The translations under genes and the position numbers were made by a program. Under the pieces are notes generated by a model. It was not told the origin of the DNA and made no database searches. It was given only the letters and a program-made list of their open reading frames with translations. Positions 22,428-44,090 of a stretch of DNA of 64,000 bases are shown in pieces. The DNA is from an uncultured Fodinibius sp. (lineage in GTDB: Bacteria > Bacteroidota > Rhodothermia > Balneolales > Balneolaceae). Location of the stretch: the NCBI GenBank assembly GCA_913056235.1, contig CAJXMW010000005.1, positions 310,001 to 374,000 on the forward strand, given 5' to 3'. The stretch's first letter is position 1. Each line of letters opens with the position of its first letter.

Positions 22428-23948
22428 ATGAAGTTAACTAAAAATGAGAAAGCAAGATTAGAAGCACTAAAATCGTATTCCATCTTAGATACTCCGGAAG
22501 AGCAGGAGTTTGAAGCATTAGTGAAGTTGGCTTCCAAAATTTGCGGAGCCGCTATCTCACAAATAAACTTTTTGGATGCTGATCGACAATGGAATAAAGC
22601 AAGTTTTCCACCTACTCCTAAAGAGATAAAACGGGGAGGAACTTTCTGCAGTACGACCATTCACAAGGACGAATGGATGATTGTTGAAGATGCCGGTAAA
22701 GACCAGCGCTTTAATGATTTACCGTATGTTAAGAATGACCCAAACGTTAAATTTTATGCTGGTGTAAATCTTAAAAGCAGTAATGGTTATAATATTGGTA
22801 CGATCTGCGTACTGGGATTTGAATCAAAAGAACTGAAGGATTGGCAGCTTGAAAGTCTTAAAACACTTGCACAAGAAGTTGAGGCCAGGTTAGAACTTAG
22901 ACAGAAGCAGAACCAGCTTAAGAAGAAAACAGGAGAATTGGAACGCCAAAAAACGTTTTTGGAAAATGCAACCGACCTGATTTTAACGCTCAATCCCAGT
23001 AATTACAATGTTACTGACATTAATAGTGAAATAGAGAATATTTTGGGCTACAAACCTGAAAGTATTACGGGTAGGTCCTTAATTGGTTTTTCTGATACCA
23101 ATGAGCTTAAAAAGCGACTTGATAACTGGTTGCAGAATTCAAGTCGAGTTTTTACGGGTGAATTCAAATTTCTAAACGAGAATGGACAACCAGTATGGCT
23201 GGAAATTCATATAACAAAAAGAATGGATGAATTATATGCGACAGCCAAAGATATTACCCAGCGAAAGCTTCAGAAAATAAAGATTGAAGAATCACTCGAG
23301 GAAAAAAATACTTTGTTAGCTGAGATCCATCACCGTGTAAAAAATAATCTAGCCATTATCTCAGGTATGTTACTTTTAGAGTTATTCAACACAGAAAACA
23401 AGCAGGCCCGGAGTATTTTACAAAATAACCAACTACGAATTCAGTCAATGGCAGAAGTGCATGAAATGCTTTATAAGACGGGTAGTTTTACAAATGTAAA
23501 CCTGAAGAAGTTTATTCATAAGCTCGTTGATAATATCAGAAGTGTTTACAAAACCGAAGAACAACAGGTTGAGCTGCACTCAAGTATCGATGACACAACT
23601 ATTAATATTAATCAAGCTATTCCAGCTGCACTGATAATAAATGAATTAACCACAAATGCATACAAGCACGCATTTGTCGGAAAAAAGACAGGTCAAATAG
23701 ACATAAATGTTAGTCAAACGGGAGATGTTATTGATTTACAAATCTTTGACAACGGTGTTGGCATGCCGGAAGATTTCACCCTTCAGGATCAGAGTACAAT
23801 TGGCTTTTCATTAGTTTGGCAACTGGTACAACAATTAGAAGCTGACATTGGACTAAAAAATGACAACGGTTCCTTATTTGAAATTAGTTTTGAAAGGAAC
23901 CAATTAAAGGGGTCAAGCAGCTCAGCAAACTTGGAAAGTGTACGATAG
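22428..23948 (+). CDS. GAF-PAS-HisKA_2 sensor histidine kinase
   Basis: A 506-residue soluble kinase without membrane segments. It has a GAF domain (about 20-160, GTFCSTTIH, VKFYAGVNLKSSNGYNIGTICVL), a short coiled coil, a PAS domain (about 180-285) and a HisKA_2 domain with EIHHRVKNNLAIISG; the expected phospho-acceptor is His302. The HATPase domain is intact, with NELTTNAYKHAF and DNGVGMP. HisKA_2 kinases often sense light, redox or small ligands and may pass phosphate to a stand-alone receiver. No response regulator is adjacent, so the partner is unknown. AT-rich and flanked by two decayed genes. Confidence 0.93.
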   Translation: MKLTKNEKARLEALKSYSILDTPEEQEFEALVKLASKICGAAISQINFLDADRQWNKASFPPTPKEIKRGGTFCSTTIHKDEWMIVEDAGKDQRFNDLPYVKNDPNVKFYAGVNLKSSNGYNIGTICVLGFESKELKDWQLESLKTLAQEVEARLELRQKQNQLKKKTGELERQKTFLENATDLILTLNPSNYNVTDINSEIENILGYKPESITGRSLIGFSDTNELKKRLDNWLQNSSRVFTGEFKFLNENGQPVWLEIHITKRMDELYATAKDITQRKLQKIKIEESLEEKNTLLAEIHHRVKNNLAIISGMLLLELFNTENKQARSILQNNQLRIQSMAEVHEMLYKTGSFTNVNLKKFIHKLVDNIRSVYKTEEQQVELHSSIDDTTININQAIPAALIINELTTNAYKHAFVGKKTGQIDINVSQTGDVIDLQIFDNGVGMPEDFTLQDQSTIGFSLVWQLVQQLEADIGLKNDNGSLFEISFERNQLKGSSSSANLESVR

Positions 23949-25206: not shown

Positions 25207-26622
25207 TTACTGGCCAAGCTTCTCATTTGAGTTCTTCCCATAATTTGTCCACCAGTTATCAAAATCATCATCAATCCACTGTACCTTGAACCCATTACGC
25301 TCCAGCAATCCACTGGCATAGGATGCGCGCGTGGCACCTTCGCAGTGGACAAGCAGTGTCTTATCACGTGGCAATTCCTCCAATTGATCAGCCAAGCGCG
25401 TATGGGCGATGTTGATGGCGCCGGGAATATGCCCTTCGGCAAATTCGGTAGCCTTGCGTACATCCAGTACTTGCATATCCTTTTGCTTTCGAAGCTTTTC
25501 AACATCGTCGAAAGCAATGGTCTTTGTTACCTGAAGGTCATGATCCCAGTTGCTGAGCATCTGCGGTGTGGCATACCCCTTTATATTGTCTATACCTACA
25601 CGTACAAGATCGCGAATAGCTTCATCCAGATGCTGTTCGTCAATGATCAGGTAGATGTCCTGCTCTGCATCGGCATAAGAACCTACGATAGTATTAAAGT
25701 TGTTGTCCATCGTGGCCAGCAGCGATCCCTTGAGATGGCCGTTCATATAATGTACTGCTTCACGGGTGTCCACAACGAGATTATCGCTTTCCGCTATATC
25801 CGTAACACTTATTTTTTGTGGCTGCGGAAGCGTGCCCAGTACCGCCGGACCTTCTCTGTTGACCTTCTTCATGCGTCCGAAGTAGAGCGGCGGTTCCGGT
25901 TGCCCGTCCAGGATAAAATCTACAAATTCGTTCTCGCTGGTCGCTGCCCGAAAAGCAGGGCTAAATCGCAATTCATACCCTACCGTTGATTCCGGCACGG
26001 CGCCGAGTGCTTTTCCACAGGCACTTCCTGAACCGTGCGCCGGCCACACTTGCAGGTACTCAGGTAGATCTTTGAATGCTTCTACAGACTGATACAGCTC
26101 TTTGGCGGCCGGCTTCATCGCTCCTTTCTGTCCAGCGGCCGTCTCCAGCAGGTCGGGCCGACCAACATCACCAACAAAGACAAAATCTCCAGACAAAATA
26201 CCCATGGGCTGATCGGTCATGGCCCCATCTGTGACCAAGAAACTCACTGATTCCGGAGTATGCCCTGGCGTATGTATCACATCAAATTTGATGTTGCCGA
26301 GGCTAAAAGAATCACCGTCATTGATGAGTTCATAGTCGTAATCGCTGTTGAGCAACCACTTATATTTCCAATCTTTGCCGCCTTCGTCAGAAGCATAGAC
26401 TTTCACGCCGCGCTCGGCAAATTCACGCAATCCCGATACATAATCGGCGTGGATGTGGGTATCGGTAGCGGCTGTAATTTCTAAATTTTCCTCCGCCGCT
26501 AAATCGATGTACTGGTCGATATCCCGCATGGGATCTACGACGATTGCCTCTCCCGTAGCCTGACATCCAATCAGGTAGGCATACTGCGCTAGTTTTTTGT
26601 CAAAAATCTGTTTGAAATACAT
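25207..26622 (-). CDS. CstB-like persulfide dioxygenase-sulfurtransferase (MBL + two rhodanese domains)
   Basis: A 471-residue cytosolic protein with three parts. Residues about 1-240 are an ETHE1-type metallo-beta-lactamase dioxygenase (THIHADYVSGL, HTPGHTPES, GDFVFVGDVGRPDLL). Residues about 260-350 form a rhodanese fold without catalytic Cys (YLIIDEQHLDEA). Residues about 365-465 form an active-type rhodanese with LLVHCEGATRASYASG. The order and length match CstB, which oxidises low-molecular-weight persulfides and yields sulfite and thiosulfate. Encoded between two YeeE genes and tauE, it is the enzymatic core of a reactive-sulfur operon. The usual second-His of THxHADH is Tyr here, seen also as Phe in relatives. 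Confidence 0.9.
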   Translation of the reverse strand: MYFKQIFDKKLAQYAYLIGCQATGEAIVVDPMRDIDQYIDLAAEENLEITAATDTHIHADYVSGLREFAERGVKVYASDEGGKDWKYKWLLNSDYDYELINDGDSFSLGNIKFDVIHTPGHTPESVSFLVTDGAMTDQPMGILSGDFVFVGDVGRPDLLETAAGQKGAMKPAAKELYQSVEAFKDLPEYLQVWPAHGSGSACGKALGAVPESTVGYELRFSPAFRAATSENEFVDFILDGQPEPPLYFGRMKKVNREGPAVLGTLPQPQKISVTDIAESDNLVVDTREAVHYMNGHLKGSLLATMDNNFNTIVGSYADAEQDIYLIIDEQHLDEAIRDLVRVGIDNIKGYATPQMLSNWDHDLQVTKTIAFDDVEKLRKQKDMQVLDVRKATEFAEGHIPGAINIAHTRLADQLEELPRDKTLLVHCEGATRASYASGLLERNGFKVQWIDDDFDNWWTNYGKNSNEKLGQ

Positions 26623-26676
26623 AATAGTTCCTCTTTTAAATCATTCAGTTATTGAAAATTCTGTTTTATGCATTGA

Positions 26677-27096
26677 TTAGTGCGGTAGCTTAGGTCTGAG
26701 AAGTCCATAAACCCAGGTTCCTACCATGGCACTTGCGATAGGCACTACGATAATTCCGTATCCAGCTCCAGCAAGAGTAAACAACGGACCCGGGCAAGCG
26801 CCGGTGAGCGCCCATCCAAAACCAAAAAGCACACCTCCCAGTAAATAACGTGTCACCTGGGATGAATCTTTGGATGAAATCGTAATTTTATTTCCATTGA
26901 AATCTGTTAGATTCAACTTTTGGATCACCTCAATGGATCCCATTGCCACAATAACGGCCAAACCGATGATGCCGTACATGTGGAAGGCATCGAATCGAAA
27001 CATTTCCTGAATTCGAAACCAGGAGATCACTTCTGATTTTACGAGCACAAATCCAAAGAACAAACCCGCAATCAAATATTTTAGATAATCCTTCAT
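26677..27096 (-). CDS. YeeE/YedE-family sulfur transporter, small subunit (DUF6691-type)
   Basis: A 139-residue, four-helix membrane protein with the family Cys motif LTGACPGPLFTLAGAG, repeated after the GVLFGFGWA signature. YeeE/YedE (TsuA-like) proteins carry thiosulfate or related sulfur through a path lined by conserved cysteines. In many bacteria two half-length genes replace the single full-length transporter, and here it lies 27 bases after the other half. It is expected to import or exchange sulfur substrate for the CstB-like enzyme downstream. Confidence 0.88.
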   Translation of the reverse strand: MKDYLKYLIAGLFFGFVLVKSEVISWFRIQEMFRFDAFHMYGIIGLAVIVAMGSIEVIQKLNLTDFNGNKITISSKDSSQVTRYLLGGVLFGFGWALTGACPGPLFTLAGAGYGIIVVPIASAMVGTWVYGLLRPKLPH

Positions 27097-27123
27097 ACTA
27101 TTGCACCTGTTTATGTTTCTTGA

Positions 27124-27684
27124 TTACAGTATTAAAGGATAAACAAAATGTGTGATAATAAGACCGCCAATAAAAAAGCCGATCACCGCAAGCAGTGATG
27201 CCAGCTGCAAATTAGCCAGCCCGCTTATAGCATGACCCGACGTGCATCCACCGGCATAACGGGCACCGAATCCAACGAAGAATCCTCCAACTATCAAAAC
27301 GATTATTCCTGAAGGATCAGCCAAATTCTGCCAGCTAAACAGGCCGTCTGGCATCATGCCTTTAAAGTCTGTAATCCCCAGTGCCTGCAGTTCTGTAACC
27401 GTTTGCTGCGACAGATCGATGGGTTCAGGATTATTCAGGTACCATCCGGCTAAAAAACCACCAAGGACCGTTCCGCCAATGAAAACTAGATTCCAGAGTC
27501 CATTTTCTTTCCAGTCGTACTGGAAAAATTCCACGCGTCCCGGCATACAGGCAGCGCAGGCATGTCTCAGATTTGATGACACCCCAAATTGCTTACTGCC
27601 AATTAAAAGAAGTAAGGGAACAACAAGTCCAATTAGCGGCCCGGAAACATACCACGGCCACGGTTGCTGCAACAATTCTGTCAT
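27124..27684 (-). CDS. YeeE/YedE-family sulfur transporter, large subunit
   Basis: A membrane protein of 186 residues with five or six helices. Conserved cysteine motifs are present: HACAACMPGRVEFF and GFGARYAGGCTSGHAISGLANLQ. The second is the thiosulfate-path signature of the family. ATG at 27684 is preferred over GTG at 27687. It is the first gene of the operon YeeE-YeeE-CstB-TauE. The promoter region carries a copy of the 20-bp element also found at the GntR gene and the efflux operon. Confidence 0.88.
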   Translation of the reverse strand: MTELLQQPWPWYVSGPLIGLVVPLLLLIGSKQFGVSSNLRHACAACMPGRVEFFQYDWKENGLWNLVFIGGTVLGGFLAGWYLNNPEPIDLSQQTVTELQALGITDFKGMMPDGLFSWQNLADPSGIIVLIVGGFFVGFGARYAGGCTSGHAISGLANLQLASLLAVIGFFIGGLIITHFVYPLIL

Positions 27685-27743
27685 CACCTACATATTTTTC
27701 CTACGGATTTTTCAACCCTGAAAGTAGGAGTTTAGCTCCTCCC

Positions 27744-35978: not shown

Positions 35979-36003
35979 CTCTTGCCCGTAGTTATAATTT
36001 TCA

Positions 36004-36034
36004 AACAGGCGATCAGCAGGTCGCCTGTTTTTTT
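36004..36034 (+). terminator. intrinsic terminator of the gntR unit
   Basis: AACAGGCGA and its complement with an eight-base loop, followed by seven Ts, 26 bases after the DUF2892 stop. Confidence 0.9.
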
Positions 36035-36148: not shown

Positions 36149-38965
36149 GTGGCTGATCAAAGAAATAACATCTCGCTCTCCGCTCTAAAAATCACCTTGA
36201 TATACTTGGTAGTGGCAGCTCTCTGGATTGCTTTTACCGACCAGCTACTCAATTCATTAGTTCCCGATCCTGAATACCTTTCTACTCTCCAAACCTACAA
36301 GGGCTGGATCTATGTATTTCTCACGTCACTAGGGCTGTTTTACCTGATAAAAAAACATGGTCAGCAAGTTTCTGAGAAAGAGAAAAAGATCAGCGAATTA
36401 TCCGAAAAGTTTTTTCTGGAAAAAGAACTATCCGACATCCTCTTTGAGCGTATCCCCGTTTTGATCAATATTTATGATCCGGACCTGGAGGAGTTCCGTA
36501 TCAACAAGGAATTTGAGAAAGTGACGGGTTGGACCAACGAAGAAATTCAGGATACACATTTCATGGAAGCTTGCTTCCCTGATCTCGAACTTCGAAAGAA
36601 AGTCGCTGAATTTATGAAAAAACCCGGGATCGGCTGGAAAGAGTTTCCTCTCACAACCAAATCAGGCGAAGAAGTCCCCACCTCCTGGACAAATATCAAG
36701 CTTACCGACAACACCTCAGTGGGTATCGGCATTGATATGTCAGAAATCAAGGCATCCCAAACAAAAATAAGGGAATCAAGAGAGTTATTGGAAAAAGTTT
36801 TTGAGAGCCTGGAATCCAGCCTGATTATTCTTGACTACGAGAGCCGTACCATTGTGGACTGTAATAAAAGCACCGAAGAACTATTTGGTTACAGTAAAGA
36901 AGAGCTCAAAGGGAGGTCAACCCGCATACTCCATGTCAGCGAAAAAAAATTCGAGGAGTTTGATGAGATAGGTGAAAATGCTCTTGCAGAAAAAGGAGTA
37001 TTCAAAACGGAGTATAAAATGCAAAAGAAGGATGGAACTATTTTTCATTCTGATCATACTGTATCGCTGGTTTATGACGAGGAAGGAAAAATTGATAAGG
37101 TCGTAAGTGTCGTACGTGATATCACTGATCAAAAAGAATACCAACAAAAACTCAAAAAACGACAAGAAAGACTCCAGCGCTCACAGGAAATCGGCAAAAT
37201 TGGAGACTGGGAATTTGATCTCCAAACTGAAGAAATCTACTGGTCAGAAATGCTGTACAGAATCTTTGAGCGCGATCCCGAATTAGGACCTCCCAGCTTT
37301 GACCAAGTACAGCAAAGCTATTATGGTGAAGACAGTAAAAAACACAATATAGCCGTAGAAAGGGCGGCACGAGAGGGACAGCCCTATGATATTGATCTCA
37401 GGTTACAAACTGAGAAAGGAAATGAAAAATATATACGAGCAATCGGTATCCCCGAAAAAGACGAATCTGGAGATGTCATCAAATTGAGGGGCATTGTACA
37501 AGATATAACCCAGCGAAAACAGTCCGAAAAAGAACTCGAACAACGTAACGTGTTCATCGAAAAAACTCTTGAAAATCTGCCCATTGGTGTAGCCATAAAC
37601 ACCATCGATGATGGCGAAGTAACCCTGATGAATGAACAGTTCACCAACATATACAGCTGGCCCCGGGAGATATTGAAAGATGTGGACAGCTTTTTTGAAC
37701 ATGTGTACCAAGATGAAGAGTACCGGGCTATGATCAAAGAGCGAGTCATGACTGACATGCAAAGCGGGAATCCCGAACAGATGCAGTGGAAGCGAATTCC
37801 TGTGACTACGCAAGATGGGGAAGAACGAATTGTCAACAATCGAGCTATCCCCCTTTATGATCAGAATTTAATGATCTCTATAGTAGTCGACGTCACTGAA
37901 CAACACGAACTGGAAGAAGAACTTAAGCTACAAAACCGAAAGCTGGAAGAAGCCCAGGAAATTGCCCAAATGGGGTACTGGGAATATGATATTGGATCCA
38001 GTGATCCACCCAAATGGTCAGAAAACCTCTACTATATATATGGACTAAATCCTAATGAGCATGAGATTACAATCGAGTCTTTTCTGAAGAGGGTGCATCC
38101 CGATGACAAACCCAACTTTGATGGGTTTATAAGCAAGGTAATCAAAGAAAAAAGCACCAATTTCACCTTTCGACTGAGAAAACAAAATGGCCAAATTGGG
38201 CATTATCATGGCCGCAGTGAGCTTATCACCGACAGTGAAGGGAACCCTGCTCAAATCCTGGGCATCATCCACGACATTACTGACATAAAGCGTATGGAAG
38301 AAAAGGTCATTCAGTCTGTTATTGAGGCTGAAGATCGCGAACGCAAGCGTATTGCGCTTGAACTGCATGACGGCCTTGGCCAGTATTTAGTGGCGGCCAA
38401 CATGAATTTCCAGTCAGTCGAGGATGAAGTAGCAAAACTGCCTGAAAAACGAGAAAAACAGTTTGCAAAAGGACTTTCTCATCTCAAGAAAGCTCTCTCA
38501 GAAACACGGAGTATAGCGTATGATCTCATGCCCAAGGCCATTACCGACTACGGACTTATCGTGGCACTCAAAAATCTGATTCAGGACTTGCGAGAAAGCA
38601 CTGATATCATATTTTCATTCAACTATAACTGTGAAAACCTGCAGTTGGGTAGCAGAGCTGAAGTCAATATCTATAGGATACTACAGGAAACTATTTCAAA
38701 TGCTGTCCAGCACTCTGGATGTTCCCATATATCTGTAAGTATAGAGAAAACAAATGAAACCTTGCTACTATCTGTTAAAGACGATGGCAAAGGGGTTGAG
38801 CTCGACAGCGAACTTGAAACACAAGGATTGGGGCTTCGCAGTATTAAGACACGAGTAAAAAGTTTAAATGGCTCTCTTAACATAGAATCCGAACCAGAGA
38901 AAGGAATGGAAACAGTAATTAGTATTCCCGACATCGATTCGCTTAAACAAAATGGAGAGATCTGA
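36149..38965 (+). CDS. membrane sensor kinase with five PAS domains (HisKA_3)
   Basis: A 938-residue NarL-type sensor kinase. Two N-terminal helices (about 13-33 and 50-68) flank a short exterior loop, with the KGWIYVFLTSLG pattern seen in many PAS sensors. Five PAS/PAC units follow (roughly 98-205, 212-332, 345-455, 460-585, 595-712). The HisKA_3 domain has RKRIALELHDGLGQ with phospho-His740, and the HATPase domain keeps NAVQHSG and DDGKGV. Start is GTG; the nearby ATG at 36132 is out of frame. Its stop overlaps the response-regulator ATG by one base, a classic two-component pair. Signal unknown; PAS domains suggest redox, light or small-molecule input. Confidence 0.93.
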   Translation: MADQRNNISLSALKITLIYLVVAALWIAFTDQLLNSLVPDPEYLSTLQTYKGWIYVFLTSLGLFYLIKKHGQQVSEKEKKISELSEKFFLEKELSDILFERIPVLINIYDPDLEEFRINKEFEKVTGWTNEEIQDTHFMEACFPDLELRKKVAEFMKKPGIGWKEFPLTTKSGEEVPTSWTNIKLTDNTSVGIGIDMSEIKASQTKIRESRELLEKVFESLESSLIILDYESRTIVDCNKSTEELFGYSKEELKGRSTRILHVSEKKFEEFDEIGENALAEKGVFKTEYKMQKKDGTIFHSDHTVSLVYDEEGKIDKVVSVVRDITDQKEYQQKLKKRQERLQRSQEIGKIGDWEFDLQTEEIYWSEMLYRIFERDPELGPPSFDQVQQSYYGEDSKKHNIAVERAAREGQPYDIDLRLQTEKGNEKYIRAIGIPEKDESGDVIKLRGIVQDITQRKQSEKELEQRNVFIEKTLENLPIGVAINTIDDGEVTLMNEQFTNIYSWPREILKDVDSFFEHVYQDEEYRAMIKERVMTDMQSGNPEQMQWKRIPVTTQDGEERIVNNRAIPLYDQNLMISIVVDVTEQHELEEELKLQNRKLEEAQEIAQMGYWEYDIGSSDPPKWSENLYYIYGLNPNEHEITIESFLKRVHPDDKPNFDGFISKVIKEKSTNFTFRLRKQNGQIGHYHGRSELITDSEGNPAQILGIIHDITDIKRMEEKVIQSVIEAEDRERKRIALELHDGLGQYLVAANMNFQSVEDEVAKLPEKREKQFAKGLSHLKKALSETRSIAYDLMPKAITDYGLIVALKNLIQDLRESTDIIFSFNYNCENLQLGSRAEVNIYRILQETISNAVQHSGCSHISVSIEKTNETLLLSVKDDGKGVELDSELETQGLGLRSIKTRVKSLNGSLNIESEPEKGMETVISIPDIDSLKQNGEI

Positions 38966-39618
38966 TGAGTGATGTTAAAATATTACTGGTTGATGACCAT
39001 GATATCGTACGCGACGGAATACGAGCATTGCTGGATAACGAAGTAGGCTTCAACATAGTCGCAGAAGCAGAAAATGGTGTTGAGGCCCTGGAAGCTTGTG
39101 ATAAGCACGATGTTCAACTTGTGGTCATGGATATAAACATGCCGGAAATGGACGGGATTGAAGCAACAGAAAAAATCAAAGAAAAACATCCCGACATTAA
39201 ATTTTTGGCTCTTACCATGATGGATGAGGACGAACATATCCGGAAGATGATAAAAGCGGGCGCTTCGGGATATATTCTCAAAAGCTCAGACAAAGATGAG
39301 TTTGTTGACGCCATTACCGCTATTCTGAATGGCCGGCACTATTTCAGTGAGGATACCACGAAACGAGTCATGATGGATCTGGTGCAAAGCAGCGCTCCAA
39401 AAGATGAACCAGATCCAAGCCAGATTACCCCACGTGAAAGAGAAGTATTGAAGCTAATTGTTGATCAATATACCAACCAACAAATCGCTGATGAACTAAA
39501 TATTAGCATTCGCACGGTTGATGCGCACCGGCGGAATCTGCTGGACAAAACAGAAGCCAAGAACACGGCCGGACTTGTCACTTATGCAATCAAGCATGAT
39601 CTGGTAGATATCGAATAG
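38965..39618 (+). CDS. NarL/FixJ-family response regulator
   Basis: A 217-residue regulator. The receiver domain (1-125) has the acid pair LVDDHD, phospho-acceptor Asp56 in VVMDINMPEMDG, and the Lys of ILKSSDKDEF. The C-terminal LuxR-type helix-turn-helix (about 150-217) reads TPREREVLKLI, then NQQIADELNISIRTVDAHRRNLLDKT. It is translationally coupled to the kinase (TGATG). It should activate or repress genes in response to the kinase; targets are not visible. Confidence 0.95.
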   Translation: MSDVKILLVDDHDIVRDGIRALLDNEVGFNIVAEAENGVEALEACDKHDVQLVVMDINMPEMDGIEATEKIKEKHPDIKFLALTMMDEDEHIRKMIKAGASGYILKSSDKDEFVDAITAILNGRHYFSEDTTKRVMMDLVQSSAPKDEPDPSQITPREREVLKLIVDQYTNQQIADELNISIRTVDAHRRNLLDKTEAKNTAGLVTYAIKHDLVDIE

Positions 39619-39731: not shown

Positions 39732-40133
39732 ATGAATATTTTACTTTTCGGGCGGAATAATTCCATTACACATACCATTCATGAAATGTTGGATTCAGCA
39801 CCGGGTTGGATCGCAACTAAAATTTGCGACCTTGATCCAGACTGGACAGCAACCATTGAATATACTGCCGAAGAACAGGATTACAACATTGTAGTAGCAA
39901 ATTTGAGCGGCTTTGTCCAGTCACCCACAATTGTCGTTAAACAAATATCGGAAACCATACCTTCAATTCCACTGCTGGTGCTTCATTCGTATAGCCAGCA
40001 AGTTCTGATTCAACCACTCATTTGGTCTGGTGCCGATGGGTACCTGCAAGTAGGATTAGGAGAGCGTAAATTATTTGAAGGCGTCAAAAAAGTTGCAGAC
40101 GGCCAAAAAACTATCTTCACAGAAAACACCTAG
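39732..40133 (+). CDS. degenerate stand-alone receiver-like protein
   Basis: A 133-residue protein with a receiver-like alternating fold (MNILLFGRNNSITHTIHEML, NIVVANLSGF, IPLLVLHSYSQ, GADGYLQVGLGERKLFEGVKKV). The acidic pair is replaced by GRNN, the phospho-Asp position by Asn (VVANLSGF), and the conserved Lys is absent (GYLQVG), so it should not be phosphorylated. It lies between a true response regulator and a PAS-HisKA_2 protein on the same strand, 108 bases before the latter. It may act by binding, for example as an adaptor for the next protein. Homology is inferred from pattern, not strong identity. Confidence 0.6.
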   Translation: MNILLFGRNNSITHTIHEMLDSAPGWIATKICDLDPDWTATIEYTAEEQDYNIVVANLSGFVQSPTIVVKQISETIPSIPLLVLHSYSQQVLIQPLIWSGADGYLQVGLGERKLFEGVKKVADGQKTIFTENT

Positions 40134-40241
40134 CAAGTGTTAGGTAGTTCCCATGGGAGAAATTTTAGCTTTTTCAGCTATTATCTTTTGCCCTGAAAAT
40201 GATGATTATATCTCATCGAAATAATTACAACCATTAACACC

Positions 40242-42425
40242 ATGACGAGCCAACACTCCGATACTAAATTCAGCTCCACTCTCCTTGACGCCCTGACTGC
40301 TCACGTTGCAGTAATTGCCGAAGAAGGACAAATCATCACGACCAACGAAGCATGGGAGTCATTCAACGATGGCAGCGCTGAGATTAAACGCCCCTCCATT
40401 GGAGAAAACTTTTTTAGAAACCTGCAACAGGCTATTGAAGTTGGCAATGATTATGCTTTGAAAATGTTGCTGGGCATCAAAAAAGTCATTCAAGGAGAAA
40501 AATCATCCTATAGCCTTACCTATCCCCTGCAGACCCAATCAGATACCTATTGGTTTAAACTAACGGTGAAGCCTTGTAACGAAGGACATCGTTTTCTGAT
40601 TATGCATGAAGATATCAGCACATCTATTGAAGCGAAACATCAGCTGAAAGAGAGTCAGAATCGCTACCAAATTCAATTCGAGCAGAGCCTGGATGGCATC
40701 CTAATTACTGACACTAAAGGGAATATCATTGATGCCAATCCTGCCGCTAGTAGTATTTTGGGATATAATCGCCGTAATCTCATTGCCTGTACACGAGAAG
40801 ATATTATAGACGTCACCGATCCAAACTACCAACAGGCTCTTGCCGAACGCAAAACCTCCGGCACTTATCAGATCGAAACAAATTTAATCCATAAAGAAGG
40901 ATACAATATTCCCGCAGAAATTTCGTCGCGGGCATACCGAACTCCCTCCGGTAAACTGCGTGCCATCGCAAGTTTTCGGGATATCAGCCAGCGCAAAGAA
41001 GCTGAAAATAACCTTATCAAGAATAAGCACTTTACCGAGTCAGCACTTAACAGCATTCCCGGGGTGTTCCTTGTCCTTGACCGCGAAGGCAACATCATTC
41101 GCTGGAACGAGCATATGGTAAAGGACCTAGGATACAGCGCCGAAGAACTAAGTAGTAAGAATGCCCTCGAGTTTATCGAGGAAGGAGACAAAGAAAGAAT
41201 CCGCCGGAAAATTCAGGAGTGTATTCAAGATGGTGAACTTTCGGTAGAAACGAAGGTATGTTCCAAAAAAGACGATATTAAAGACTACTTTTTGTATGCC
41301 AAACGATTTGTAGAAGACGGAGAAACCTATCTTGTAGGGGCGGGCATCGATATAAGCGAGAGTAAAAAGAACGAACGCGAAAACCGAAAGAGCCAATTAA
41401 AACTGCAACAACTATTCGACAACGCCCCCGTTGGCATCACAATGGTCGACACCAATAAACAAATCATTCAAGCCAATCGTAGCTTTGAAAACATGTTCGG
41501 CTTTGAGGCAAGGGAATTAAATGGCCAGAATATCAATGAACTGATTGTGCCCGACGACATGCGAGATGAGGCTGAGTCTATTTCTCGTGCCACACAAACT
41601 GGTCAAAGTTTGCAAACAAAGTCTATCAGGAAAACCAACAGTGGCAAAGAAGTACCCGTGCTCATCGGTACTGTTCCGGTGGAACTGAAGGATGAAATTA
41701 TTGCTATTTACGGCATATATGTTGATATCACACGACAACAGGAATATCAGCAAAAAATTGAAGACGCTCTCTATGAAAAAGAGATATTACTGGCGGAACT
41801 GCATCACAGAGTTAAAAACAACCTGGCACTTATAAATAGCTTGTTAGAACTTCAGCTTTTTGAAGCTAATGATGACACATGTTCCAAGCAGCTTAGCCAA
41901 ATCAAAAACCGTATTCTTACAATTGCGTCAATACACGAGGCGCTGTACCGCCAGGGAAATTTATACGATATCCTATTTTCCGACTTCCTGAACGAGTTTT
42001 TTACCAGCGGTGGCTTTAAAAATGAAAGTAAGAGTAAGGCGATTACCCTGAAGAATAACGCTGGGCAAATCTGTTTGGATATCGATCAGTCCATACCCTG
42101 TGGATTGCTTCTGAATGAAGTACTTTCACTAATTTTCGAATTCACCGATCCCAACAAGGAAAATGATATTTATATCAGACTGCGTGAATATGGTCGGCAA
42201 ATTCATCTCATCATTGAAGGCATTGACATGGTCAATTGTCCTAAAAAAGTACGAGAACAACGTTCGATGCATAACATCCTGATTGATCCCCTGGTGAAAC
42301 AACTGCAGGGTAATTTCTTGTGGCCTTCCAGCGATGGCGATTACCAAAAATTTGAGCTTATCTTTACCAAACAGAACGGTAATGGACCGGGCCGTAAACT
42401 GCTTGAAAACTCTGAGCTCAGCTAG
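40242..42425 (+). CDS. PAS-rich HisKA_2 protein with degenerate ATPase domain
   Basis: A 727-residue soluble protein with four PAS-type domains (roughly 12-130, 137-255, 262-375, 385-500) and a clear HisKA_2 dimerisation segment, ILLAELHHRVKNNLALINSL, including the expected His522. The HATPase part is eroded. The N-box NELxTNAxKHAF of the related kinase at 22428 reads NEVLSLIFEFTD, losing the Mg-binding Asn. The G1 box DNGVGMP reads EGIDMVNCPKK. It may therefore be a pseudokinase that accepts phosphate or relays shape change. Its neighbour is a receiver-like protein that has also lost its key residues. Confidence 0.85.
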   Translation: MTSQHSDTKFSSTLLDALTAHVAVIAEEGQIITTNEAWESFNDGSAEIKRPSIGENFFRNLQQAIEVGNDYALKMLLGIKKVIQGEKSSYSLTYPLQTQSDTYWFKLTVKPCNEGHRFLIMHEDISTSIEAKHQLKESQNRYQIQFEQSLDGILITDTKGNIIDANPAASSILGYNRRNLIACTREDIIDVTDPNYQQALAERKTSGTYQIETNLIHKEGYNIPAEISSRAYRTPSGKLRAIASFRDISQRKEAENNLIKNKHFTESALNSIPGVFLVLDREGNIIRWNEHMVKDLGYSAEELSSKNALEFIEEGDKERIRRKIQECIQDGELSVETKVCSKKDDIKDYFLYAKRFVEDGETYLVGAGIDISESKKNERENRKSQLKLQQLFDNAPVGITMVDTNKQIIQANRSFENMFGFEARELNGQNINELIVPDDMRDEAESISRATQTGQSLQTKSIRKTNSGKEVPVLIGTVPVELKDEIIAIYGIYVDITRQQEYQQKIEDALYEKEILLAELHHRVKNNLALINSLLELQLFEANDDTCSKQLSQIKNRILTIASIHEALYRQGNLYDILFSDFLNEFFTSGGFKNESKSKAITLKNNAGQICLDIDQSIPCGLLLNEVLSLIFEFTDPNKENDIYIRLREYGRQIHLIIEGIDMVNCPKKVREQRSMHNILIDPLVKQLQGNFLWPSSDGDYQKFELIFTKQNGNGPGRKLLENSELS

Positions 42426-42502: not shown

Positions 42503-42528
42503 AAGCCCTCTGATTGCTCAGAGGGCTT
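42503..42528. terminator. bidirectional intrinsic terminator
   Basis: AAGCCCTCTGA-TTGC-TCAGAGGGCTT, perfect 11-bp arms. On the minus side six Ts follow, ending the DUF7282 gene; it also lies 78 bases after the kinase stop. Confidence 0.85.
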
Positions 42529-42569: not shown

Positions 42570-44090
42570 TTAGTTCACCGTAAACTTAACCATTACAATA
42601 TCACTGTTGGAATCGGTTACCGGTGGGTCTTCAGGATTCTCATCACTGACATCAAAATCATAGGTGCCATTGTTATTGCTGTCGATATGCAACATCGCCC
42701 AGAGTTTATCGCCGGACTCCACGCTATTATCACCCAGATCAACCATCAAGTCACCATTGGTACCGGTATAGATATCCGCCTTACCAATGATACCAGATAC
42801 ATCGGGGGCATCGTTGCCGTTACCATCCTGCGTATTGCGGTGTATAACCACGAAGCCGCGCTGCAGGGCATTTGCTTCGCCCACAGCAATATCACTGTCT
42901 GCAGACTGATCGTTTGTTACCACACTTGGTGTGGCACCTGATACTTTAATCTGTTTCATCAGGATATTTCCTTCAACAAGCATAGGCTGATCGAGACCAT
43001 TCTGCCCATCGAACTCATATTCGCCCATTGTACCGGTATCATAATGCACCATCGGCCAGAGCTGTTCGCCATCAGTTACAACAGAATCTCCAAAGGATAT
43101 TTGTACGTCGGTGTTCATACCTTTTTCTACCGGCGCTTTTCCGATAATTGGAGGGACGTTGGGTCCATTACCAGCATCGCGGTGCACCACTACCCAACCA
43201 GCGGCATCAGCATCAACATCCACGGTAATACTGTTATCCATCACCATCTGGTCAGTAGCTGTTAACGTTGATTGGTTGGCTTCTACAGTGAAATTGCTTA
43301 GTACAATGTCTCCATCAAACACAACAGGCTGGTCGAGGCCACTGTTGCCGTCGAATTCATATTTGCCGTCGGTACCGGTATCGTAATGCAACATAGGCCA
43401 CAATTGTTCGCCGGTTTCTACAGATTCACCGTCGTTCAGTGAAATCTGGACCGTACCATTTTCGCCGGCTTCAACGGGCGCTTTCCCAATAATATCCGGC
43501 ACCATGGGACCATCACCGGCGGAGTTTGAGCGGTGAATCACAATCCAGCCCTCTTCGGCAGCATTCACATTTACATTGAATACACCGCCGCTGTTCGCCT
43601 TGTTTACCTGGCTGGGTGAGCTAATAGCTGGATCGGTCTGAGAAATTCCAAATGGCTTGGTGAAAACATCCCCATCTACCGTGATCGGCTGATCGGGCGA
43701 ATCGGAGCCGGTAAACTCATATTCCCCTTCGGTTCCGGTATCCTCATGGAGCATGGCCCAAAGCTGTTCACCGTCGGAGACACTTTCTTGGAGCTGAATG
43801 CTCACATCTGTGTTCGTGCCGGACTCAAGCATGGCCTTTCCGATAATATCGGGTACCATCGGTCCGTCACCACTTTCGGATGAACGGTGAATAACAACCC
43901 AAGCACCCTCAGCAACTTTGGCCTCTGGAATATTTACCTGGTTCCCGTTCATCGTTCCTTGATCTTCAACAGACAAGGTGGCGGGATTTTCTTCCATATC
44001 GGGTTCGTTGCCCATACCATCGTCTTTGCATGACATGAGTGGAAGAGTCAACAGTATTATACCTACAACTAACTTATTTTTTATAAACAT
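42570..44090 (-). CDS. lipoprotein with four DUF7282 repeats
   Basis: A 506-residue exported lipoprotein (IILLTLPLMSC) made of four repeats of about 115 residues (roughly 40-150, 152-268, 270-385, 390-506). Each repeat carries W/F-V-V-I/V-H-R near its start, GPMVPDIIGKA or a variant, GEQLWxMLHxDTGTxGEYEF, and a DQPI/V-x-x-x-GD segment. This is the DUF7282 beta-sandwich, best known from haloarchaeal surface proteins. Composition is strongly acidic. Function is not known; a surface or periplasmic structural or adhesive role is possible. Single gene with its own terminator. Confidence 0.85.
   Translation of the reverse strand: MFIKNKLVVGIILLTLPLMSCKDDGMGNEPDMEENPATLSVEDQGTMNGNQVNIPEAKVAEGAWVVIHRSSESGDGPMVPDIIGKAMLESGTNTDVSIQLQESVSDGEQLWAMLHEDTGTEGEYEFTGSDSPDQPITVDGDVFTKPFGISQTDPAISSPSQVNKANSGGVFNVNVNAAEEGWIVIHRSNSAGDGPMVPDIIGKAPVEAGENGTVQISLNDGESVETGEQLWPMLHYDTGTDGKYEFDGNSGLDQPVVFDGDIVLSNFTVEANQSTLTATDQMVMDNSITVDVDADAAGWVVVHRDAGNGPNVPPIIGKAPVEKGMNTDVQISFGDSVVTDGEQLWPMVHYDTGTMGEYEFDGQNGLDQPMLVEGNILMKQIKVSGATPSVVTNDQSADSDIAVGEANALQRGFVVIHRNTQDGNGNDAPDVSGIIGKADIYTGTNGDLMVDLGDNSVESGDKLWAMLHIDSNNNGTYDFDVSDENPEDPPVTDSNSDIVMVKFTVN

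Follow-up and report, generated by a model that had tools for sequence, protein, structure and literature searches.

The question raised by this locus is what two proteins that have lost the catalytic residues of their families may do next to an intact two-component pair. The window analysed, a stretch of 64,000 nucleotides, comes from an uncultured Fodinibius sp. of the Balneolaceae, a salt-loving bacterium, and the four genes concerned lie on its plus strand. The first encodes a membrane sensor kinase with PAS and HisKA_3 domains (36149..38965; Pfam HisKA_3 and HATPase_c), with two hydrophobic segments at the N-terminus and intact HDGLG, DDGKG and GLG motifs. It is followed by an intact NarL/LuxR response regulator (38965..39618; Pfam Response_reg, E 1e-30, and GerE), in which D10, D11, D56 and K106 are invariant and T84 nearly so among 33 orthologues. 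The next two genes encode a stand-alone receiver-like protein of 133 aa (39732..40133), here called REC*, and a PAS/HisKA_2 protein of 727 aa (40242..42425), here called pHK. A first-pass annotation, made from the sequence alone, had given their coordinates and lengths and placed both beside an intact pair, correctly in each respect. Terminator-like hairpins, each a consensus match only, were found upstream of the unit (36003..36030, plus strand) and just downstream of pHK (42503..42528, minus strand); from gene order, spacing and these two hairpins we infer that the four genes form an operon. The gene that follows (42570-44090, minus strand) encodes a 506-aa protein of four DUF7282 repeats and adjoins pHK at loci L039 and L040 as well. 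Elsewhere in the window (25207-27687, minus strand), a Metallo-beta-lactamase/rhodanese protein lies beside two Sulf_transp sulphur-transport proteins, and these probably take part in sulfide handling. A search of the literature for histidine kinases and response regulators of Balneolaceae returned no paper. Pseudo-receivers and pseudo-histidine kinases are common, and their mechanisms are largely unknown (PMC12632262).

In the REC* of the window all five receiver catalytic residues are replaced, as judged from its predicted model and the alignment. The acidic-pair positions after β1 are G7 and R8, as the first pass had noticed, together with the missing phospho-Asp, whose position at the end of predicted β3 is N57; H85 occupies the Thr/Ser position at the end of β4, and V107 that of the Lys. 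Pfam Response_reg did not match REC* even at E<=1, nor did any other Pfam family, and a PDB search with its sequence gave weak matches alone (E at least 0.22). The AlphaFold model (pLDDT 91) has the (βα)5 receiver fold, and its closest structures are the NarL/LuxR receivers VraR, DesR and LiaR (E 1e-7); a profile built from REC* orthologues matches NarL receivers at E about 1e-19. On the evidence of this model, the REC* of the window is a pseudo-receiver, or aspartate-less receiver, with a receiver fold and no catalytic residues.

The orthologues qualify this picture. Outside the genus of the window the phospho-Asp position holds Asp in 29 of 29 REC* proteins, and within the genus it is Asn in seven of eight and His in one, so the degeneracy is ancestral only in part. 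None of the 37 aligned sequences has the first acidic residue or the Lys, and their Thr position is mostly His; the second acidic residue is kept in 13 of the 29 from outside the genus. Keeping the Asp while losing the first acidic residue, the Lys and the Thr is the reverse of what is usual in aspartate-less receivers (PMC4395418). Described pseudo-receivers (ALR/PsR), such as CmrT beside CmrS/CmrR and WhiI with BldM, resemble REC* in their NarL-type receiver fold and in lying in one operon with a pair that is otherwise normal, but REC* has no output domain. For pseudo-receivers in such operons, a review names two possible roles, heterodimerising with the partner receiver and competing for the kinase (PMC12632262). 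By analogy, a part as heterodimer partner or competitor is probably the most economical reading of REC*.

The second protein, pHK, carries a sensory part (40242..41753), a HisKA_2 (DHp) domain with the H-box ELHHRVKNNLA (41796..41955; Pfam HisKA_2, E 1e-20) and a pseudo-CA domain (42072..42380), and no transmembrane or hydrophobic segment was found in it. The first pass had counted four PAS domains. Pfam finds three in the window protein; the N-terminal region alone gave no match, and the probable fourth, a divergent PAS, is weakly supported by a PAS_4 match that falls short of the gathering score in a single homologue (L101, E 1.6e-4). No Pfam HATPase domain was matched in the pseudo-CA domain. 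At the N-box, NE (625-626) is followed by VLSL, with Leu at the Asn position, and G1 reads EGIDMVN, as had been proposed; G2 (SMHNIL) is gone too. HisKA_2 was matched in all 33 aligned orthologues and HATPase_c in none of them at E<=1; not one retains N-box, G1 or G2, so that no pHK with intact motifs was found in this set. The expectation that both losses would be conserved in orthologues therefore held for pHK, but not for the phospho-Asp of REC*. In some distant pHK proteins (NELMN) a one-residue register shift would put an Asn at E+3 instead of E+4; we rejected this as a restored N-box, since G1 and G2 are absent regardless. In the model of the DHp-CA region (pLDDT 82) the best structural match was the HWE/HisKA_2 kinase EL346 (Z 16.8), so this fold is preserved. 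The claim that both proteins keep their folds thus agrees with the two models.

What the first pass had missed is the histidine. The H-box HHRVKNNLA is invariant across the 33 pHK proteins (E19 and H21-A29 in the domain alignment), with a mean entropy of 0.09 bits vs 1.2-2.5 in the rest of DHp-CA, and the phospho-acceptor is most likely H522, as the HRxxN motif indicates. It had been suggested that the two proteins may act by protein contact; the invariance of the phospho-accepting His points beyond mere contact, to phosphotransfer.

We then have to ask whether such proteins are working at all. Of 92 Balneolaceae genomes, 48 carry REC* (8 of 21 genera) and 42 carry pHK (8 genera). The order HisKA_3 kinase, NarL regulator, REC*, pHK recurs in the family, the named relatives being uncultured Aliifodinibius, Gracilimonas, Rhodohalobacter and other Balneolaceae. 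In a 394-genome sample of the phylum the REC* profile gave E values below 1e-24 only in Balneolaceae, the next matches being mostly full NarL regulators; more distant REC* proteins follow a NarL regulator in a few other Bacteroidota (L102, L103 and L105). That the genes are merely on their way to loss would fit a REC* that is broken in one genome (G012) and a pHK that is deleted or truncated in five others. We hold this for highly improbable, since some 40 genomes from 8 genera share open frames, gene order and an invariant H-box, a conservation that rules out random decay. Inherited across much of the Balneolaceae, REC* and pHK look like working non-catalytic regulators.

They are not, however, the obligate pair that the earlier proposal implied, because each occurs without the other. 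REC* is kept where pHK is gone (G050, G051 and G063) or broken (G067), and in G061 pHK is reduced to a PAS-only open frame of 505 aa (L201:840-2357), which lacks the DHp-CA part and has neither the receiver nor the kinase downstream; all these genomes are draft assemblies, in which single gene losses may include assembly error. Outside the Balneolaceae, REC* stands without pHK in L102 and L105. Conversely, pHK is kept in G012, where REC* is broken, and is present without REC* in L100 and L101. REC* tracks the HisKA_3/NarL pair better than it tracks pHK, and from this separable occurrence it probably belongs with that pair.

The genome of the window (G000) is rich in relatives of pHK. A DHp-CA profile matched 28 places, 26 of them strongly and two as small fragments. 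A HisKA_2 CA-domain fragment with internal stops, G000:C7:134504-134919, is a probable kinase pseudogene. Among the 25 HisKA_2 proteins in which an HRxKN-type motif allowed comparison, 24 keep the N-box Asn and the G1 D, and pHK alone has lost all ATP motifs; in the 26th (G000:C1:28332) IHDRVRDN replaces the motif and DNGHPLP stands at G1. In an effectively unrooted tree, 35 pHK proteins fall on one side of a single branch from 26 intact HisKA_2 proteins, most of which come from one genome (all columns, 100/98). The pHK branch is again single on the DHp columns alone, although these are few (SH-aLRT 90), and independent losses of the ATP site among pHK proteins are accordingly disfavoured.

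With 24 compared paralogues that have intact N-box and G1 and a near-identical H-box, one of them could phosphorylate pHK in trans within a mixed dimer. We consider this very unlikely, as the cassettes contain no linked or co-inherited intact HisKA_2 partner. A hetero-oligomer with the kinase at 36149 or at 22428 had also been suggested; nothing singles either out, the former being a HisKA_3 kinase and the latter one among two dozen HisKA_2 kinases of the genome whose N-box and G1 are intact. The same genome holds a paralogous module (L195:5487-11278, i.e. G000:C7:117486-123277) composed of a NarL regulator with a degenerate acidic pocket, a KaiC-like double ATPase and a PAS HisKA_2 kinase whose HATPase_c is intact. 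In another genome (G019, locus L073) a stand-alone REC*-like protein lies between regulator and KaiC, so relatives of REC* occur in the KaiC setting too.

A protein with the histidine of a kinase and no ATP site has a precedent in PhyT of Sphingomonas, an HRxxN-family protein with a degenerate ATPase domain, whose His relays phosphoryl groups to PhyR from SdrG, a FATGUY receiver (PMC5898713). PhyT (PhyP) of Sphingomonas melonis, a member of the alphaproteobacterial general stress response, shares with pHK the HWE/HisKA_2 DHp with HRxxN and the degenerate ATPase domain; it too is thought to have evolved from a kinase, and its exchange partner is a FATGUY single-domain receiver. In contrast to pHK, which is a soluble protein with PAS domains, found in Bacteroidota beside a NarL/HisKA_3 pair and putative as to transfer, PhyT has a membrane anchor and lies at the phyR locus. 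The dimeric histidine phosphotransferases ChpT and Spo0B likewise keep the DHp and a CA fold without ATP function, but they have no PAS sensor. They are not known to belong to the HisKA_2 family, and the Pfam models do not clearly place pHK among them: SPOB_a matched weakly in 5 of the 33 pHK proteins (E 0.028), and no ChpT-type model is among the Pfam families listed. Neither protein is among the fold matches listed for pHK, which does not count against them.

As pHK cannot be expected to use ATP and has an invariant phospho-accepting His, phosphate exchange with receivers is the simplest reading. The H-box could also be kept for packing or for phosphatase activity, and either would weaken this reading. 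Were pHK a dedicated phosphatase, acting on the NarL regulator or on FATGUY-like receivers, it would need no ATP; the conserved DHp adjoins the regulator, and PhyT, as PhyP, was itself first proposed as a phosphatase (PMC5898713). In vitro, however, PhyT was inactive as a phosphatase on PhyR (PMC5898713), and the NarL regulator and REC* are kept in genomes without pHK; we regard such a role as rather improbable.

Alternatively, and in line with the first pass, pHK may be a pure scaffold or inhibitor, in which the PAS domains sense and the DHp joins an active kinase, as a heterodimer or by docking, in the manner of RetS/GacS or DivL, no phosphate being passed. The CA domain is dead in all members, and the transmitters of DivL and RetS are among the structural matches listed for the pHK DHp-CA model. 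The Caulobacter pseudokinase DivL has Tyr at the phospho-His position, whereas pHK keeps the His and loses the CA motifs. Like pHK, it joins a PAS array to a transmitter of histidine kinase fold without a kinase role, and PAS-only forms of DivL are described in Rhodobacterales (PMC9430884), which the PAS-only pHK of G061 resembles. The latter cannot transfer phosphate, and its retention speaks against phosphotransfer. The invariant phospho-accepting His, on the other hand, is not needed in a scaffold, the neighbouring kinase at 36149 belongs to another DHp family (HisKA_3), and the one at 22428 is, as noted, one among many. Such a role seems possible though unlikely.

If pHK exchanges phosphate, its partners may be found among receivers linked to it. 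In 16 relatives pHK is closely followed, with spacings between an overlap of 28 bp and a gap of 97 bp, by a single-domain receiver with conserved catalytic residues and the motif [VA]-[IL]-Y-[IV]-[TS]-G-N or close to it, and in most of the 16 a GAF-HisKA kinase comes next. Compared with the FATGUY motif PFxFATG[G/Y], sequences such as PVIYITGN in the same place have only P, T and G in common. FATGUY receivers have been characterised as promiscuous hubs (PMC5964349). In the genus of the window the linked receiver and the GAF-HisKA kinase are both absent; the window's genome has three unlinked single-domain receivers with a FATGUY-like VIYI[TS]GN (G000:C5:23667, C3:100753 and C5:200982), which are candidate partners of pHK by their motif. 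Three genomes in which pHK is lost or broken (G051, G063 and G067) keep the linked receiver and kinase, so pHK is not indispensable to a relay in these; in G050 and G061 neither a pHK transmitter nor the linked receiver nor the GAF-HisKA kinase lies near REC*.

Taken together, the sequences suggest a two-component system with two non-catalytic attachments, pHK acting by phosphotransfer and REC* by binding, a reading to which we give about an even chance. According to it, pHK would not autophosphorylate and would be a dimeric, PAS-controlled, ATP-independent histidine phosphotransfer protein, donor or drain, along the lines of PhyT, ChpT and Spo0B. Its His would take phosphoryl from intact receivers and return it to them. 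The partners would be single-domain receivers of FATGUY-like type that other kinases have charged, and perhaps the adjacent NarL regulator, and the PAS array would govern which way, or how fast, the transfer runs. REC* would probably bind, competing or forming heterodimers in the exchange between kinase and NarL regulator. Transfer between pHK and the NarL regulator has against it that a HisKA_2 DHp and the partners of NarL/HisKA_3 systems normally belong to different specificity groups. The fuller scheme, a Bacteroidota pseudo-enzyme phosphorelay running from many HisKA_2/HisKA kinases through FATGUY-like receivers to a PAS-gated pHK that feeds phosphate to, or drains it from, a NarL regulator that has its own HisKA_3 kinase and is gated by REC*, remains doubtful.

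The unit holds both pseudo-proteins in one conserved operon-like arrangement, and nature supplies its variants, with REC* having or lacking the Asp, with or without pHK, and with a PAS-only pHK; partners and functions should therefore be separable by genetics. If phosphotransfer by pHK is true, a PhyT-like solution known from alphaproteobacterial stress signalling would reach a distant phylum, with the NarL regulator as its likely client.
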